Part shown: positions 16,347-64,000 of the stretch, in pieces
Layout: every line of letters begins with the position of its first letter
Position numbering within the stretch: position 1 is the first letter of the stretch
Assembly (NCBI RefSeq): GCF_010692725.1
Contig: NZ_JAAFZB010000087.1
Location: forward strand, 1-64,000
Length of the DNA stretch: 64,000 bases
From: Flavihumibacter soli
GTDB lineage: Bacteria; Bacteroidota; Bacteroidia; Sphingobacteriales; Sphingobacteriaceae
Reading direction: 5' to 3'
Notes under the pieces: model-generated
What the model saw: only the letters and a program-made list of their open reading frames with translations
Told to the model about the DNA's origin: nothing
Databases searched by the model: none
Translations under genes and position numbers: made by a program

Positions 16347-16443
16347 GACGGGGGAGGAATCTATGCAAATAGGACTGCGTGGGCGGTTGGCGTATATATT
16401 CCCCCTGGCTGGGGGCGCTTGGACTTTATATTTTCCCAAACCC

Positions 16444-16496
16444 TTGCTATTGCGGCTAATTACTTTTTACTTTGATAGTGCGTGTGCGCATACGCA
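16444..16496 (+). promoter_or_regulatory. Promoter and LacI-type operator of the GH16 gene
   Basis: TTG (16444-16446), a 20-bp spacer and TTACTTTG (16467-16474) fit the Bacteroidota promoter pattern with one mismatch. Four bases later an 18-bp palindrome TGCGTGTGCGCATACGCA (16479-16496, 8 of 9 pairs matching, central CG) covers the expected transcription start. The same arrangement, almost base for base, precedes susC at 58.9 kb. Confidence 0.8.
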
Positions 16497-17487: not shown

Positions 17488-18642
17488 ATGACCCGTCAGC
17501 AATTTTTACAGCAGTCCGCTATGGCGGGCGCCGCCGTATTGCTTTCTTCTCTTGAAGGATTTGCATTAAGCAGGGACAATAAAAAAATTAAGGTTGCCGT
17601 CATTGGCTGCGGCAGTGTGTCCGGCTCGTACCTGCCGCACTTATCTGCATCAAGCTTTGTCGAGATCGTTAGTGTCTGCGACATCATTCCGGAGCGGGCC
17701 GTTGCGCGCGCCAGGGAATTTAATGTAGCGCATTACTATCCGCATATCGACCAGATGCTTGCGGGCGTGCCATTTGATATGATGATCACGTTGACGGATA
17801 TGCAGGAGCACGGCCGCCTGAACAGGCAGGCTCTCGAGGCGGGTAAACATGTGTGGAGTGAAAAGCCGCTGGCCAATACCTATAAAGAAGGCCGGGCCCT
17901 GGTTGACTTTGCGCAGAGCAAAAAATTACGGATCTGGGGAGCACCCGCCGTGGTTAACAGTCCCCAGTTTGCTTTTATGTCAAAGGCCATTCGCGAGGGT
18001 AAACTGGGAAGAGTATCAAGTGCGCATGCTCATTACGGGCATACAGGTCCGACCTGGTCGTCTTTTTTCTACGAGGAACTCGGCGGCAGCCTGCCTGACC
18101 TGGGTGTCTATAACCTGGCGACCCTGACCGGTCTCCTCGGGCCCGCAAAGTCAGTAATGGCAATGACAACTATTGTGACCCCGGAGCGAAAAATCGATAA
18201 CAAGGGAACCATACAGGTGCGTGCCGAAGATAATTCGCAGGTAATTATGGAACATGCCGGGGGCGTGCTCTCGAATGTTCAATGCGGTTTCAACTTTTTC
18301 GATCCGCATGGCCACCAGGGAAAGAGCGAAGAAAATCAAACCATACAGATCTGGGGTACTCATGGAAATATGGCGTTGGCCGGTTATGACTGGGCACCGC
18401 ACGGAGTGGACATGGTTACCCACGATCATGAAGCGCCGCAACGTTTTGTTCCCGATCCCGGCGACTATGTCTGGCAGCAGGGAGCCTCTGTAATTTCGGA
18501 ATCACTCGTTACCGGCACCGAACCCCTGATCGCAGTGGAACACGCCCTTCATGTCCTTGAAATTATTGAGGCTGCAAGAAAGTCCGGTAAAACAGGTCGT
18601 AAGATCAACCTCAAGTCTAGCTTTAAATTCCCGGTAGTGTGA
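17488..18642 (+). CDS. Gfo/Idh/MocA family oxidoreductase, exported
   Basis: A 384-residue NAD(P)-dependent sugar oxidoreductase. The N-terminus (TRQQFLQQ followed by AMAGAAVLL) resembles a Tat signal with only one Arg of the pair, so export is likely but not certain. The dinucleotide motif VIGCGSVSG lies near residue 38, and the family motif EKP near residue 130 (WSEKPLAN). It is only 75 bases downstream of the GH16 glucanase, with no terminator seen, and may act on sugars released by it. It is a paralogue of the Gfo/Idh gene at 3.9 kb, but without a DUF1080 partner here. Confidence 0.85.
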   Translation: MTRQQFLQQSAMAGAAVLLSSLEGFALSRDNKKIKVAVIGCGSVSGSYLPHLSASSFVEIVSVCDIIPERAVARAREFNVAHYYPHIDQMLAGVPFDMMITLTDMQEHGRLNRQALEAGKHVWSEKPLANTYKEGRALVDFAQSKKLRIWGAPAVVNSPQFAFMSKAIREGKLGRVSSAHAHYGHTGPTWSSFFYEELGGSLPDLGVYNLATLTGLLGPAKSVMAMTTIVTPERKIDNKGTIQVRAEDNSQVIMEHAGGVLSNVQCGFNFFDPHGHQGKSEENQTIQIWGTHGNMALAGYDWAPHGVDMVTHDHEAPQRFVPDPGDYVWQQGASVISESLVTGTEPLIAVEHALHVLEIIEAARKSGKTGRKINLKSSFKFPVV

Positions 18643-57728: not shown

Positions 57729-58814
57729 ATGAAGAGTACAGCAATTCGTATTAAAGATATAGCGATAAAGGCGGGGGTTTCGACGGGAACGGTCGACAGG
57801 GTCATACATAACCGTGGCAGGGTTGCTGAAGACGTAAAGGAGAAAGTTCTTAAGATTATTGAAGAACTGAACTATGAACCTAACCTGATGGCCCGGGCAT
57901 TAGGCTCCAATAAAGTTTATCACCTGGCGGTATTGATCCCCGATCATAAAGTCGACTCTTACTGGGAAGCTCCTAAGTTGGGTATTGAAAAAGCTGAACG
58001 GGAACTAAAGCAATACGGAATAGTAATTCATCAGTACATCTTTAACCCATATGATGCCGACTCCTTTGTTCGAAAGGCAGAGCAGTTGACACAAAGTAAG
58101 CCGAACGGCGTTTTTTTGTCACCCATCTTTTACCGGGAAGTGCAACCTTTTTTCCAGAAGTGGCGCAAGCGCAACATCCCGTTTGTTCTGTTTAACACAC
58201 AGATCCCTGAGTCAAACCCCCTGAGTTATATTGGCCAGGATTCTTACCAGAGCGGCTATGTGGCAGCCAGGCTTACACACTACGGAAATCCGGAACCCTG
58301 TTCAATCTTAATTGCGCACATCGACGAAGAGCCCTCTAATGCGGCTCACCTGCTTAAAAAGGAGCAGGGCTTCCATGATTATTTTCGCAAAAAAGATCCT
58401 GATGGAAAATACACCATTTGCAGGTCTGATCTGAACCGGCAGTCTATGCCTGCTTTTAGAAAACAGTTGGACAAGGATATAGCGCAAAATTCATCGCTGC
58501 GGAGCATCTTCGTTACAACATCCAAGGCATATGAGATCGCAAAATATCTTGAAGAGAAAGGTCTGAGCCACATCAGGATTATAGGATATGACCTGCTGGA
58601 AAAGAATCTGTACTACCTCAATAATGATGTCATCAGTTTCCTGATAAATCAAAACCCAATGGGGCAGGGCTACTGGGGCATTTCCATACTTACAGACTTC
58701 CTGGTCTTTAAAAAACCAGTCCCCCTGATCAAATATCTGCCGCTGGATATCGTAAGTGCTGAGAATGTTTCTTATTTCACAGAAGCTTCTATGCTCTCTT
58801 TTCAAGCGGTTTAG
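57729..58814 (+). CDS. LacI-type transcriptional regulator
   Basis: A 361-residue regulator: a LacI helix-turn-helix and hinge (residues 6-60, IRIKDIAIKAGVSTGTVDRVI then RGRVAEDVKEKVLKII) and a periplasmic-binding-protein type effector domain (about 62-355). The STGTVDRVIHNRGRV form of the helix is a recurrent LacI variant in Bacteroidota. It is 174 bases upstream of susC on the same strand. Two TGCGTGTGCGCA-type palindromes with central CG in that gap, and one before the GH16 gene, are its probable operators. A sugar or oligosaccharide inducer is expected. Confidence 0.88.
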   Translation: MKSTAIRIKDIAIKAGVSTGTVDRVIHNRGRVAEDVKEKVLKIIEELNYEPNLMARALGSNKVYHLAVLIPDHKVDSYWEAPKLGIEKAERELKQYGIVIHQYIFNPYDADSFVRKAEQLTQSKPNGVFLSPIFYREVQPFFQKWRKRNIPFVLFNTQIPESNPLSYIGQDSYQSGYVAARLTHYGNPEPCSILIAHIDEEPSNAAHLLKKEQGFHDYFRKKDPDGKYTICRSDLNRQSMPAFRKQLDKDIAQNSSLRSIFVTTSKAYEIAKYLEEKGLSHIRIIGYDLLEKNLYYLNNDVISFLINQNPMGQGYWGISILTDFLVFKKPVPLIKYLPLDIVSAENVSYFTEASMLSFQAV

Positions 58815-58862
58815 CCCCTTGTTCATGCAAAACATGACCTTTTAATTATTTTTTCGAAAGTC

Positions 58863-58947
58863 TTGCTATTTCCGATTATTACAATTTACTTTGGATAATG
58901 CGTGTGCGCAAACGCACGCCAGCAAATAAAGTGTGTGCGCAAACGCA
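58863..58947 (+). promoter_or_regulatory. susC promoter with two LacI-type operators
   Basis: TTG (58863-58865), a 20-bp spacer and TTACTTTG (58886-58893) form the promoter. Five bases on comes TGCGTGTGCGCAAACGCA (58899-58916, 8 of 9 pairs matching, central CG), and 31 bases centre to centre further the weaker AGTGTGTGCGCAAACGCA (58930-58947). The promoter and first operator match those of the GH16 gene. Confidence 0.85.
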
Positions 58948-58988: not shown

Positions 58989-61900
58989 ATGAAAGTCAAA
59001 CTTACTAATCATGCAAAGGAGGTGCGCCGTTATAGCGCCATCATCCTGGGAATTGGTCTGCTCGCAGGAAATCCTGTTAATGAAGCATTCGCTGTTCCTT
59101 TAAGGAGTAAAAAGATGCTCCTGCTAGAAGACATTGCTGTCAGGGGAACGATCAGAGACAAAACCGGTCCTCTGCCGGGAGTAACTGTAACACTGAAAGC
59201 TGACCCTTCAAAGAAGGCGGTGAGTAACGCAGAAGGAAATTATTCGATAACCGTTCCTAAAGACGGAATACTGGTATTCTCTTTCGTAGGATACGAAACT
59301 GTAGAACAGCCTGTGAACGGGAAGGCGACACTTAATATCCTGATGGGTGAATCATCGACTTCCCTGAACGAGGTGGTTGTAATTGGTTACGGATCGAAGC
59401 AAAGACAATTTCTTACCGGTGCGGTGGCTACGGTAGGATCAGAGATCATCGAATCTAAGCCAGTCACCAATGCTATCTCAGCTCTGCAGGGCGAGGTGCC
59501 CGGATTGACCATCCAACGTTCTTCCGGACAGCCCGGAACAGAAGGGTTTGAGCTGAATGTGCGTGGTTACTCCTCGACTAACGGCGGTAACTCACCAATG
59601 GTCTTAATTGACGGAGTTTCCGGCAGCATAGACCTCCTTAATCCAAATGACATTGAGTCAATAAGTGTTTTAAAGGATGCATCGGCTTCCATATATGGTG
59701 CCCGCGCCGCAAATGGTGTGATCATCGTTACTACCAAAAAAGGAAAATCAGGCGCTCCGAAAATAACGTACAATACCAATTTTGCGAGCAGCAAAATGAC
59801 CGGTATGATGGAAAGCCCCACTAACCTGGAAATGGCCTTAATGGATAATGAAGCGAATATGCATAACGGTGCAGCGCCAATGTATACGGAAGACTATCTG
59901 AACAGGATCCGCAACAATGATCCTAACCCGGTAGATCATCCCTTATATGGGGGATGGAAACTCTTCTTTACAAATACCAACTGGACGGAAGCGATCATGG
60001 AAAAAGGTTTCCAACAACAGCATAATATTAATGTTTCCGGGGGCGGTGAAAACTCTTCATACTACCTGTCCGGTGGGTTTTCTGACCAGCAGGGCGTAAT
60101 AAAATATGCCGATGACGGAAATCAGCGGTACAACCTGCGCCTTAATTATGACTATGATTTTTCCAAAAAGATAAGGCTGGAAACGAAGGTTTCCCTGGAA
60201 AACCAGCGCCGTACTGATCTTGGCGGTTTAGGCAGTTGGGTACTCACTGAAGCGACTTTCGGCATGCCTAATCATCCGGTCTACAACGCTGATGGCCAAT
60301 ACTTCGCACAGGGTGGCTGGGGTAATGCGCTGGCACAAGCGCAGGGTGCTGAAACCGCAGTTTACAATAAGAGAAATCTGAACACAAATTTCAAGCTAAG
60401 CGCGGAATTATTGAAGGATCTGAAACTCAACCTGCAAACCGGTATCAACTTTACTTCCGACGACAATAAGGATATTGCTAAATCCGTACCTCTTTACAAC
60501 TGGGATGGCGATCTGGCATATTATACGATTGCAAACCCGGGTGAGAGTTCTGTAGCTCCTTTCAGTGCGGAGAAGACCTACAGGAACTTCACAGGTTATT
60601 TCCAATACAACAAATCTTTCGGTAAGCATGATCTCGACATTATGGGCGGCGCATCCCATGAAGAAAATGATTATGAATGGTTCAGCGCCCGAAGAGACAA
60701 TTTCCCAAGTGAAGATGTCTGGTCGATCAATCTGGGCAGTTCCGATAACTGGTCAAACGGCGGGGGTGGTGATCAATGGGCGATCAGTTCACTCTTTTCC
60801 AGGATCGGCTACGTATTCGATAACAAGTACATGCTGGAAGGTAATCTAAGATACGACGGATCCTCAAAATTCGCGGCTAACAGTCGTTGGGGATTGTTTC
60901 CTTCCATTTCAGCGGGATGGAGAATATCTCAGGAGAACTTTTTTCAGGGCGTTGACTTTGTAAATGACCTGAAGTTGAGGGCCTCCTACGGTCAGACCGG
61001 TAATCAGGAGGAAGGCGTTGTCGGCAATTACGATTATATTCAACTTATAAATATTGGCCGAGTGTGGCCTGACCAATCTTATTATCCTTTCGGTGCAGGT
61101 AGACCGGTCCAGTCAGCCTATTTAAATGGAATGAAGGTATCTGATGACAGGACCTGGGAGACATTAATTAACAGGAATATTGGTATTGATGCCAGTATGT
61201 TCAACTCGAAACTTAGCTTTTCTTTCGATTACTTCGTTAAAACGAACAGGAATATGCTGATTCCGGTTACTTATCCTAGCGTAATTGGAGCGACACCCCC
61301 ATTCTCGAACTCAGGAGAGTTAAAGACCTGGGGTTTCGAGAGCTCACTTGGGTACAGGAACAAGTCCGGGATTTTTGACTATTCCGTCCGCTTGCTTATG
61401 AGTGATTCGCAGAACAAGATTGTAGACTACGGGGGAGGAGATACTTACGTGCCTGGTTTGAATAAGGTAAGGGAAGGTTATCCGGTGAACACTTATTTCG
61501 CTTACGAATTCGACGGCCTGATCAGGAGCCAGCAGGAGCTGGATGCCTATAAGCAACTGGGAGGTGTTCCTGAGGATATCGGTATTGGTGATGCCCGATT
61601 CAAAGACCTGAATGGCGACGGTGTTATCAGCGCATACGGTGATAACAATGATGGCGATGTTCGCAACGTGGGGAGTATCACGCCGCGCTATACCTATGGA
61701 CTGAACCTGGATACCAAAGTGAAGAATTTCGACTTCGGTATCTTCTTACAGGGAGTAGGCAAGAGAACCATGTTCCGTGAAGGCGAGTACTCAATGCCAT
61801 GGAGTGATTGGTGGAGACAACCGGCCCGCTTTTACTTTGGTCAGACCTGGAACGAGGATCGCCCGAATGCGGAAATGCCAAAATTAAGCCATGGAAATAT

Positions 61901-62162
61901 CCGCTATTGGAATTATCAGCCTTCTACATTGCAAAAGATCGACGGCGCTTATGTGAGGCTCAAGAATATCCAGGTTGGGTATACTTTACCTACCAGCCTG
62001 ATGAACAAGGTGTCGGTTTCAAGAGCACGTATCTATTTCAGCGGCCAGGATCTGTGGGAAAAGCACAATGTGAAAGGCGGATGGGATCCTGAATCTAACC
62101 AGTGGGGCTTTAATTACCCGTTCCAGCGTATATATTCATTCGGTTTAGATGTAACATTTTAA
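58989..62162 (+). CDS. SusC/RagA-type TonB-linked outer-membrane protein
   Basis: A 1057-residue glycan-import receptor. The ATG at 58989 is preferred over one at 58902 because the latter lies inside the operator and gives no signal peptide, while the former leads into a long signal ([10 protein letters not shown], cleavage near NEAFAV). A CarboxypepD-like domain ([17 protein letters not shown]), plug with the SusC motif [25 protein letters not shown] (in short parts) and barrel follow. SusD follows after 10 bases. The operator match with the GH16 beta-glucanase suggests beta-glucan oligosaccharides as the ligand. Confidence 0.94.
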   Translation: [1057 protein letters not shown]

Positions 62163-62172
62163 CTCAGTTGTC

Positions 62173-63825
62173 ATGAAAAGATTTATTAATATACACACTT
62201 TCCTATGCCTGGTGCTGATCGTAGCAGCCGGGTGTAAAAAAGATTTGGACCTGGCTCCGAAGGATAAGCTTTCAGATGCGTCTTTCTGGAAAACCCCCGA
62301 GCATTTTGAGCTGGCGGCCAATGATTTTTATTTCGGTCTGAAGGAGGTGTCTCAAAACACCGACAATAATTCAGATATCGCTTTCGGTACCGGCGCAAAC
62401 GCGGTGAGTAACGGCTCGTTCCTTGCTCCTGCAAACTCAGATTTATGGGATGACTCCTACGAACAGATCCGGGCAACTAACTATCTGCTGCAAAAAGCGG
62501 AAGAGTCCGGCCTCGAAGCAGCAATCGATCCTTCTGTAGGAGCGGCACTATTTTTCCGTGCTTATAGCTACTGGAACCTGGCAAGCAGATTTGGCGGTGT
62601 TCCTAAGATTGAAACGGTCCTGGAAGTCACTTCCCCGGAACTCTATTCTCCCAAATCAACCCAGGTGGAAATATTTGATTTCATCCTGGCTGACCTGAAG
62701 GAAGCGGCAACTAAATTGCCCCTTGAAAGTGAGCTGTCTGCAGATGATATGGGGAAAGTAACTCGTGGCGCTGCGTTGGCGCTTAGAGCACGGGCTGCTT
62801 TATATATGGGAACCTGGGCGAAATACCACGGCACCGGAGACGCGGCCAAATATCTTGCGGCTGCAGTGGAATCGGCAAATGAAGTAGTTAACTCAAATGA
62901 ATATCGGCTATACACAGACAAAGGTGCCGATAGTTACAAGCATCTTTTCATCCTTGGCGGCGACGACAGCAAAGAGGTTATCCTGGCACGTCGCTATTAT
63001 GCTAACCAGGCAACACACAACTGGACGCGTGAACTCTGGTTCAATGCGATGACGCCGACTAAGAACCTGGCAGACATGTACCTTGCAACCGACGGGCGGC
63101 CTATATCTCAGTCACCATTATTTGCCGGTTATAATACACTAACCAGCGAATTTGCAAACCGGGATCCACGCCTGGCTATGACTTTCGTTGTACCGGGTAG
63201 CACAATTTTCTTCGAAGGTGGAATATTGCAGCCAAAATTCCCTGGTTTCTCAGGATCTGATGCAACACACACGGGATATATGCTTCGTAAATTTCTGGAT
63301 GAAACCGAAGATGCTGCCTCTTTCCGTGGCGAGTATGACTTCAAAGAATTCAGATATGGCGAAGTTCTGCTGATCCTGGCCGAAGCTTTATATGAGACCA
63401 ACGGACAGATCTCTGATGCAGATCTGAACCGTACGATCAATGTGTTAAGAAGCCGTGTGAACATGCCTGCGCTGACTAACGGCCACGTAGGAACCTACGG
63501 ATTAAATATGCTGGATGAGATCAGACGCGAGCGTACAGTAGAACTTGCTTTCGAAGGCTTCCGAAGGGATGACCTGAAAAGGTGGAAAGCCGGAGAAACT
63601 GTTATGAAACAGTCATTGCGGGGTGTTAAATTTGTAGGTACCGAGTACCAGCAAAGATATCCGGATCTTAAAGTAGGAACCGACATACAAGTTGACGCCC
63701 AGGGCTTTGTTGTGGCTGAACAGGCTTCATCCAGACAGTTCCTGCCAAAGCATTATTTCGACCCTATACCATTACAGCAGATCCAGCTATCTAACGGCAG
63801 CCTTGTTCAAAATACCGGCTGGTAA
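62173..63825 (+). CDS. SusD/RagB-type surface lipoprotein
   Basis: A 550-residue lipoprotein (Cys21 in VAAGC) and the partner of SusC. The SusD fold is shown by the conserved N-terminal LAPKDKLSDASFWKTPEHF, TPR-like helices of the middle (YEQIRATNYLLQKAEE, AALFFRAYSYWNLASRFGGVP) and the C-terminal block NMLDEIRRERTVELAFEGFRRDDLKRW (cut: RRERTVELAFEG). It binds oligosaccharides and closes the SusC barrel. It is 10 bases after susC, so translation is coupled. Confidence 0.94.
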   Translation: MKRFINIHTFLCLVLIVAAGCKKDLDLAPKDKLSDASFWKTPEHFELAANDFYFGLKEVSQNTDNNSDIAFGTGANAVSNGSFLAPANSDLWDDSYEQIRATNYLLQKAEESGLEAAIDPSVGAALFFRAYSYWNLASRFGGVPKIETVLEVTSPELYSPKSTQVEIFDFILADLKEAATKLPLESELSADDMGKVTRGAALALRARAALYMGTWAKYHGTGDAAKYLAAAVESANEVVNSNEYRLYTDKGADSYKHLFILGGDDSKEVILARRYYANQATHNWTRELWFNAMTPTKNLADMYLATDGRPISQSPLFAGYNTLTSEFANRDPRLAMTFVVPGSTIFFEGGILQPKFPGFSGSDATHTGYMLRKFLDETEDAASFRGEYDFKEFRYGEVLLILAEALYETNGQISDADLNRTINVLRSRVNMPALTNGHVGTYGLNMLDEIRRERTVELAFEGFRRDDLKRWKAGETVMKQSLRGVKFVGTEYQQRYPDLKVGTDIQVDAQGFVVAEQASSRQFLPKHYFDPIPLQQIQLSNGSLVQNTGW

Positions 63826-63899: not shown

Positions 63900-64000
63900 A
63901 TGAAAGTTTCAAAAATCATTGCAGATGGCCAGCACGGGCTTTTAAGCTCGTCGCTAAAAAGAGGGAGTTTCTCCCTGCTGAAGAAAGGTGCTTTCATCCT
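63900..64000 (+). CDS. Start of a further PUL gene (cut by the window edge)
   Basis: An ATG at 63900 opens a frame of 33 codons that runs off the right edge: MKVSKIIADGQHG, basic and serine-rich, then hydrophobic near the edge. It could be the next gene of the utilisation locus (surface glycan-binding protein or enzyme), but nothing in it identifies the family. It is 74 bases after susD and on the same strand. Confidence 0.4.
   Translation, partial: MKVSKIIADGQHGLLSSSLKRGSFSLLKKGAFI

Follow-up and report, generated by a model that had tools for sequence, protein, structure and literature searches.

A predicted LacI-type operator common to the promoters of a laminarinase-like GH16 gene and a distant susC gene in Flavihumibacter soli

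Introduction

The stretch of Flavihumibacter soli DNA analysed here (contig NZ_JAAFZB010000087.1, positions 1 to 64,000; these 64,000 nucleotides are referred to as the window) contains a gene for a laminarinase-like GH16 enzyme and, 42 kb away, a susC gene with a closely similar promoter. A LacI-family gene adjoins the second promoter, and the original prediction was of a split beta-glucan regulon, in which a glucanase and its own SusCD importer are under one repressor. The locus raises the questions of which protein would act at both promoters, to what sugar it would respond, and how a glucanase gene so far from the importer came to have the same control region. The features concerned are as follows.

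16426..16496, plus strand: GH16 promoter-operator module, aligning to 58846-58916 with identity in 58 of 72 columns
16444..16474, plus strand: GH16 promoter boxes TTGCTATT-N14-TTTACTTTG, of the -33 and -7 type
16479..16496, plus strand: putative LacI-type operator of GH16, TGCGTGTGCGCATACGCA, covering the expected transcription start; matrix score 18.2 bits
16543..17412, plus strand: GH16 laminarinase-like enzyme, 289 residues, with a signal peptide recognised by eye and EIDIME at 165
17488..18642, plus strand: Gfo/Idh/MocA oxidoreductase, 75 bp behind GH16
57729..58814, plus strand: LacI-family regulator, 361 residues (PF00356, E 2.6e-17; Peripla_BP_4, PF13407, E 1.1e-38)
58846..58916, plus strand: susC promoter-operator module, partner of 16426-16496
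58863..58893, plus strand: susC promoter boxes TTGCTATT-N14-TTTACTTTG
58899..58916, plus strand: predicted susC operator 1, TGCGTGTGCGCAAACGCA; matrix score 21.5 bits, matched by profile model R1
58930..58947, plus strand: predicted susC operator 2, AGTGTGTGCGCAAACGCA; matrix score 24.3 bits, the top match of R1

Three predicted operators and their rarity in the genome

Sequence searches place the common boxes and the 18-bp palindrome at 16444-16496 and 58863-58916, as had been described, and the palindrome with its central CG lies over the expected transcription start at 16479-16496. Local alignment shows that the shared module begins further upstream than previously recognised, so that 16426-16496 corresponds to 58846-58916. 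By eye, TTACTTTG matches the specified letters of TAnnTTTG at five of six positions. There are three 18-bp even palindromes with a central CG near the starts of the putative target genes, at 16479, 58899 and 58930; the last of these, a second susC operator 31 bp past the first, was absent from the original prediction.

A search of the whole genome (4,438,325 bases in 96 contigs) for TGCGTRTGCGCAYACGCA with up to three mismatches finds only four places, namely 16479 (no mismatch), 58899 (one), 58930 (three) and a weak one at C92:292315, where 0.01 would be expected in the window; the palindrome, for which such a search had been proposed, is therefore not scattered at random through the genome. 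The looser TGYGTNTGCGCANACRCA occurs at 35 places compared to 14 for its reversed control, and the best of those other than the three window sites has two mismatches. The core GTGTNCGNACAC with up to one mismatch is found at 35 places and its reversed control at 54; the exact core is absent from this genome, each of the three window sites having one mismatch. The core alone is thus not enriched, and it is the full 18-mer and its promoter context that stand out. The promoter pair TTGCTATT-N11-15-TTTACTTTG occurs at three places in the genome, the third of which (C94:110611-110642, minus strand) sits within a 391-residue open frame on the opposite strand.

A weight matrix built from 45 sites near lacI in related genomes, none of them from this genome, ranks the 20-mers at 58929 (24.3 bits), 58898 (21.5) and 16478 (18.2) first, such that the top-scoring site found in the genome is susC operator 2, at 58930-58947; the next score is 13.9. 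All 35 places with the core were scored with the matrix, and all 35 places with TGYGTNTGCGCANACRCA by their 18 letters; the value of 13.9 is the highest after the window sites among the stretches scored. Three candidates for further regulon members, at C92:235333 (13.9), on contig C95 (12.6, in L234) and at C90:71456 (11.2), were rejected as each lies within an open frame; we note that the first is 76 bases into its frame and hence near a possible start. Among the places scored there is no other convincing operator in this genome. The profile model R1, made from 33 relatives' sites and too short for its result to be decisive, matches both susC sites at E values up to 10, and does not list the GH16 site at that threshold, with 150 of its 656 candidates scored.

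Probable assignment of the operator to the LacI-family protein

Three genes with a LacI-type helix-turn-helix (PF00356) are found in the genome, including the one at 57729-58814, and its PF00356 and PF13407 matches bear out the description of a LacI-type gene next to one of the two promoters. The protein combines the helix-turn-helix with a periplasmic-binding-type effector domain, as do LacI-family local regulators. Orthologues with at least 55% identity are present at 42 places in 39 of 300 further genomes sampled from the family; only one of 19 congeners searched has one (G139), and the best match (68%) is in another genus, so that the distribution is patchy. The stretch VSTGTVDRV, which we take to hold the recognition helix, is identical in 39 of the 42 orthologues.

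We have examined 40 loci carrying these orthologues. The core GTGTNCGNACAC with up to one mismatch has 86 matches in them, 35 exact and 51 with one mismatch, compared to 0–6 exact and 1–33 one-mismatch matches for each of 11 control palindromes. Forty-five of these sites, in 28 of the 40 loci, lie no more than 500 bp from lacI, a zone that makes up 5.8% of the sequence, and 38 of the 45 are downstream and seven upstream of the gene; the controls have 0–2 sites each in this zone, in 0–2 loci. The remaining 12 loci have no core within one mismatch in the zone. The core is near lacI in all three of the named orthologue loci L024–L026 (two Dyadobacter and one Pontibacter), and in one of 11 loci whose LacI proteins are more distant. 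Across the family, the exact pattern TGNGTGTNCGNACAC is present in 30 of 301 genomes, 19 of the 39 with a LacI orthologue and 11 of the 261 without (Fisher p 3e-12); the test omits the F. soli genome, which is negative for the exact pattern, and its cases are not independent, as LacI-bearing relatives cluster in some genera. Because the core is near orthologous lacI genes in 28 of 40 loci, against 0–2 for the controls, it is very probably the adjacent LacI protein to which the operator belongs. Two of the loci (L145 and L148) have a pair of orthologous LacI genes, about 7.6 kb from each other, that flank DUF5107-like, MFS and other genes.

The form of the sites is usual for such proteins: in the excerpts of PMC4052901, 1251 of 1303 LacI regulators have even palindromes, and 1173 a central CG. 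No matrix match precedes lacI itself (57729) among the best 25, and the sites thus give no sign of autoregulation, which the same excerpts report for 72% of LacI regulators, making it frequent and not universal.

Gene content of the operon and the expected effector

The window stops within the polysaccharide utilization locus (PUL) behind susC, and its gene content was therefore read past the window end:

58989..62162, plus strand: SusC/RagA-type TonB-dependent transporter
62173..63825, plus strand: SusD-type lipoprotein
63900..64000, plus strand: start of a GH123 gene, which continues past the window
Past the window (L019), same strand: DUF5107/BDI_1685 protein, GMC oxidoreductase, NahK-like APH kinase, CBM9 protein, MFS transporter
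Past the window (L019), after the MFS gene, same strand: GH3, Gfo/Idh/MocA protein, NagB-like isomerase, Khk-like kinase

The GH123 protein matches solved GH123 enzymes (5l7r, E 1.5e-121), and the kinase (L019:5654-6775) matches the N-acetylhexosamine kinase structure 4ocu (E 5.4e-75, homology only), such that the operon appears to encode a NahK-type N-acetylhexosamine kinase. The NagB-like isomerase (L019:12229-12963) matches NagB 2bkv (E 4e-43) and stays under all NCBIfam cut-offs. The MFS transporter scores 312.4 bits against gluP (glucose/galactose), above the cut-off of 202.55, and 389.7 bits against NagP, below the cut-off of 625, and the GH3 exceeds the cut-off of BglX, a beta-glucosidase; with both over these cut-offs, a glucose-type sugar fits as well. 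None of the 10 operon proteins is a deacetylase of a phosphorylated sugar; elsewhere in the genome there is a NagA above its cut-off (C95:303965, 323.5 bits), and PIG-L matches occur at three places. The DUF5107/BDI_1685 protein (L019:2012-3808) closely matches a solved structure, the TPR-domain protein 5cd6 (E 3e-250).

Comparison of the 40 orthologue loci with the F. soli proteins by blastp finds a NahK-like gene in 18, a NagB-like gene in 19 and one or the other in 24, leaving 16 with neither; MFS and CBM9 genes are each present in 21, SusC in 14, GH3 in five, GH123 in four and GH16 in none, and one locus has a phosphoglucomutase and an epimerase in addition. An operator is near lacI in 21 of the 24 loci with a NahK-like or NagB-like gene, and in seven of the 16 others. 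Five further operators, in four relatives, lie on a different contig from lacI, and members in trans therefore occur for this regulator group, with the proviso that separate contigs in the relatives' assemblies may adjoin in the real genomes. These operators precede a CBM9-MFS pair, a NagB-PIG-L gene, a GH31 gene (where the site adjoins another LacI gene), a beta-helix gene, and a pair of genes with the lengths of the kinase and of NagB, near which MFS and CBM9 genes are also found. The NagB-PIG-L gene (L282:5193-7115) encodes a single protein in which a PIG-L-type deacetylase domain comes after a NagB domain.

The NahK-like and NagB-like genes, the members on other contigs and the likeness to the BT4240 system discussed below lead us to expect an effector of the N-acetylhexosamine type. 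We therefore think it fairly probable that the LacI protein represses both susC and GH16 through the three predicted operators, in an amino-sugar-type regulon into which the glucanase has been recruited; the transporter result and the count of 24 in 40 weaken the amino-sugar part of this reading. The relatives of this LacI protein are often encoded beside amino-sugar genes, so that GH16 may take part in an amino-sugar programme instead of one for beta-glucan alone.

The principal alternative is that GH16, SusCD and GH3 handle one beta-1,3-glucan, and that the LacI protein senses a glucan oligosaccharide or a glucose-type sugar. The GH16 enzyme is indeed like laminarinases (3iln, E 1.3e-84) and retains 98 of 101 conserved columns, the BglX-type GH3 and the gluP-type transporter are above their cut-offs, GH3 recurs in five of the orthologue loci, and known 1,3-glucan loci contain GH16, GH3 and SusCD in the excerpts of PMC7157763. 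All of these genes are present here, but GH16 is 42 kb away from the others, the operon also carries GH123, NahK-like and NagB-like genes, the relatives' loci have one or the other of the latter two in 24 cases and GH16 in none, and the regulator adjoining the susC PUL is a LacI protein, not a hybrid two-component or SusR-like one. Furthermore, the genome has a GH16 paralogue with 71% identity at C96:299795, in a locus (L289, C96:290001-310000) with a Y_Y_Y/propeller/GerE regulator, SusC, SusD, a PKD protein, GH16, GH30 and GH5-CBM6; this appears to be a separate glucan-type PUL, and there is no matrix match above 9 in its 20 kb. The genes past the window, with one GH3 beside GH123, NahK-like, MFS and NagB-like genes, speak against the susC importer as part of a beta-glucan regulon, and together with the separate C96 locus and its lack of an operator they weaken the reading of the operon as a beta-glucan PUL, which we regard as unlikely. 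What is supported of the split regulon is two promoters 42 kb apart with a common LacI-type operator; what finds no support is the beta-glucan label and the notion that GH16 has its own importer here. Of the two, a regulon of the amino-sugar type that has recruited a glucanase is thus the more likely, and a glucan part in its programme is possible because GH16 is laminarinase-like and a BglX-type GH3 is in the operon.

The GH16 operator in its lineage

GH16 matches are present in 187 of 301 genomes, and we examined 40 loci, comprising the window gene, the C96 paralogue and 38 others. The window gene groups in a tree with the C96 copy and two congeners (support 96/92), in an inner order that the tree leaves unresolved; L212 forms a long branch. 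Upstream of these genes the operator is found only at the window gene, with a score of 18.2 compared to at most 8.4 in the 39 others, one of whose upstream regions (L204) is 241 bases long. Within this sample, the link between GH16 and the operator thus looks private to the F. soli genome.

This restriction could also be expected if the GH16 operator were a remnant or too weakly bound, the promoter being common by descent and only susC being regulated. GH16 has one operator compared to two at susC, its score is lower (18.2 versus 24.3 and 21.5), and it is the site not listed by R1. Against this, the site has no mismatch to the palindrome as first described, and it has been kept while the module diverged at 14 of 72 columns, and we consider a non-functional site quite improbable.

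Origin of the promoter-operator module

The likeness of the two promoters extends beyond the operators. In the 17 columns that precede the -33 box, 12 are identical, and the spacer between the boxes is identical at eight of 14 positions. With the operators left out, the pair aligns with a score of 52; in a comparison set of 122 loci from related genomes (2,270,290 bases) together with the window in masked form, on both strands, the best other score is 42 for the susC promoter and 38 for the GH16 promoter. That two ordinary promoters came to look alike by chance or by independent convergence, for which one might cite the partly phylum-generic character of the matching boxes (in the excerpts of PMC7366714) and a spacer that taken alone is identical at only eight of 14 positions, is very improbable in view of an expectation of 0.01 operator matches for the window and of a promoter score outside the operators that nothing in the 2.27 Mb of related DNA reaches.

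Identity in 58 of 72 columns, and a score above the other related DNA examined, suggest common descent of the two regions through copying of the module, with selection on the common boxes contributing to the likeness. The donor was probably the susC promoter, judging from the relatives and not from a tree. As a more speculative and rather doubtful extension, a module of about 72 bp may have been copied from the promoter of susC to that of a duplicated laminarinase gene at a distance of 42 kb, placing an extracellular beta-1,3-glucanase under an amino-sugar-sensing repressor for which the amino sugar is the cue for a mixed material, for example the fungal cell wall. Were this so, a bacterium sensing the amino sugar would open the glucan layer of such a material.

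Proposed regulation and comparison with known systems

In the amino-sugar-type regulon that we favor, the LacI protein would bind the three operators, palindromes with the core GTGTNCGNACAC and a CG at the center, and would repress susC and GH16 by covering the transcription start at each promoter. At susC, the pair of operators, spaced 31 bp or about three helical turns apart, may provide tighter control of the long PUL operon presumed to lie behind them, while GH16 would respond to the same signal through one operator, perhaps together with the Gfo/Idh/MocA gene behind it, with which it is possibly co-transcribed. The repressor would be released by a sugar signal in the cytoplasm, for which an N-acetylhexosamine or its phosphate is the most likely candidate, and we infer that the two promoters are then co-induced. 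The laminarinase-like paralogue would have joined the regulon in its own lineage, probably by way of the copied susC module.

The local LacI-family sugar regulons in the excerpts of PMC4052901 are similar in having an even palindrome with a central CG, a sugar-binding effector domain, a local sugar-pathway regulon and operators about 50–81 bp before start codons (our own count); they differ in that here the predicted members include a distal endo-glucanase gene, seen in this genome alone, and no operator is seen before lacI. The closest studied case is the GalNAc PUL BT4240-50 of Bacteroides thetaiotaomicron, in which BT4240 is an APH-type GalNAc kinase (excerpts of PMC11992087). The two have in common a NahK-type APH kinase, an inner-membrane sugar transporter and SusC/SusD; however, the presumed regulator there is an ECF sigma/anti-sigma pair and here a LacI protein, and BT4240-50 has GH109, GH2 and an M60-like peptidase where the F. 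soli operon has GH123 and GH3, as far as the excerpts describe it.

We found no fitting description in the open-access literature of a LacI regulator of laminarin or N-acetylhexosamine in Bacteroidota, nor of the link between this LacI group and its operator. The comparisons link a group of LacI orthologues within one Bacteroidota family to an operator and to amino-sugar-type genes, and provide a candidate case in which an enzyme gene located outside a PUL has joined the regulon of that PUL by acquiring its promoter-operator. They also warn that a PUL substrate guessed from a single co-regulated enzyme can mislead.

The 1,3-beta-glucan loci of Bacteroides (1,3GUL) share with the F. soli genes a GH16 of the laminarinase kind, GH3 and SusCD, and are described in the excerpts of PMC7157763 as single clusters controlled by a hybrid two-component sensor, whereas here GH16 is 42 kb away, the predicted operator is of the LacI type and amino-sugar-type genes are present. 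The C96 locus, with its GH16, GH30 and GH5, is closer to such a glucan locus than the susC PUL is; a cytochrome-c-like protein of 406 residues is encoded after it on the same strand.
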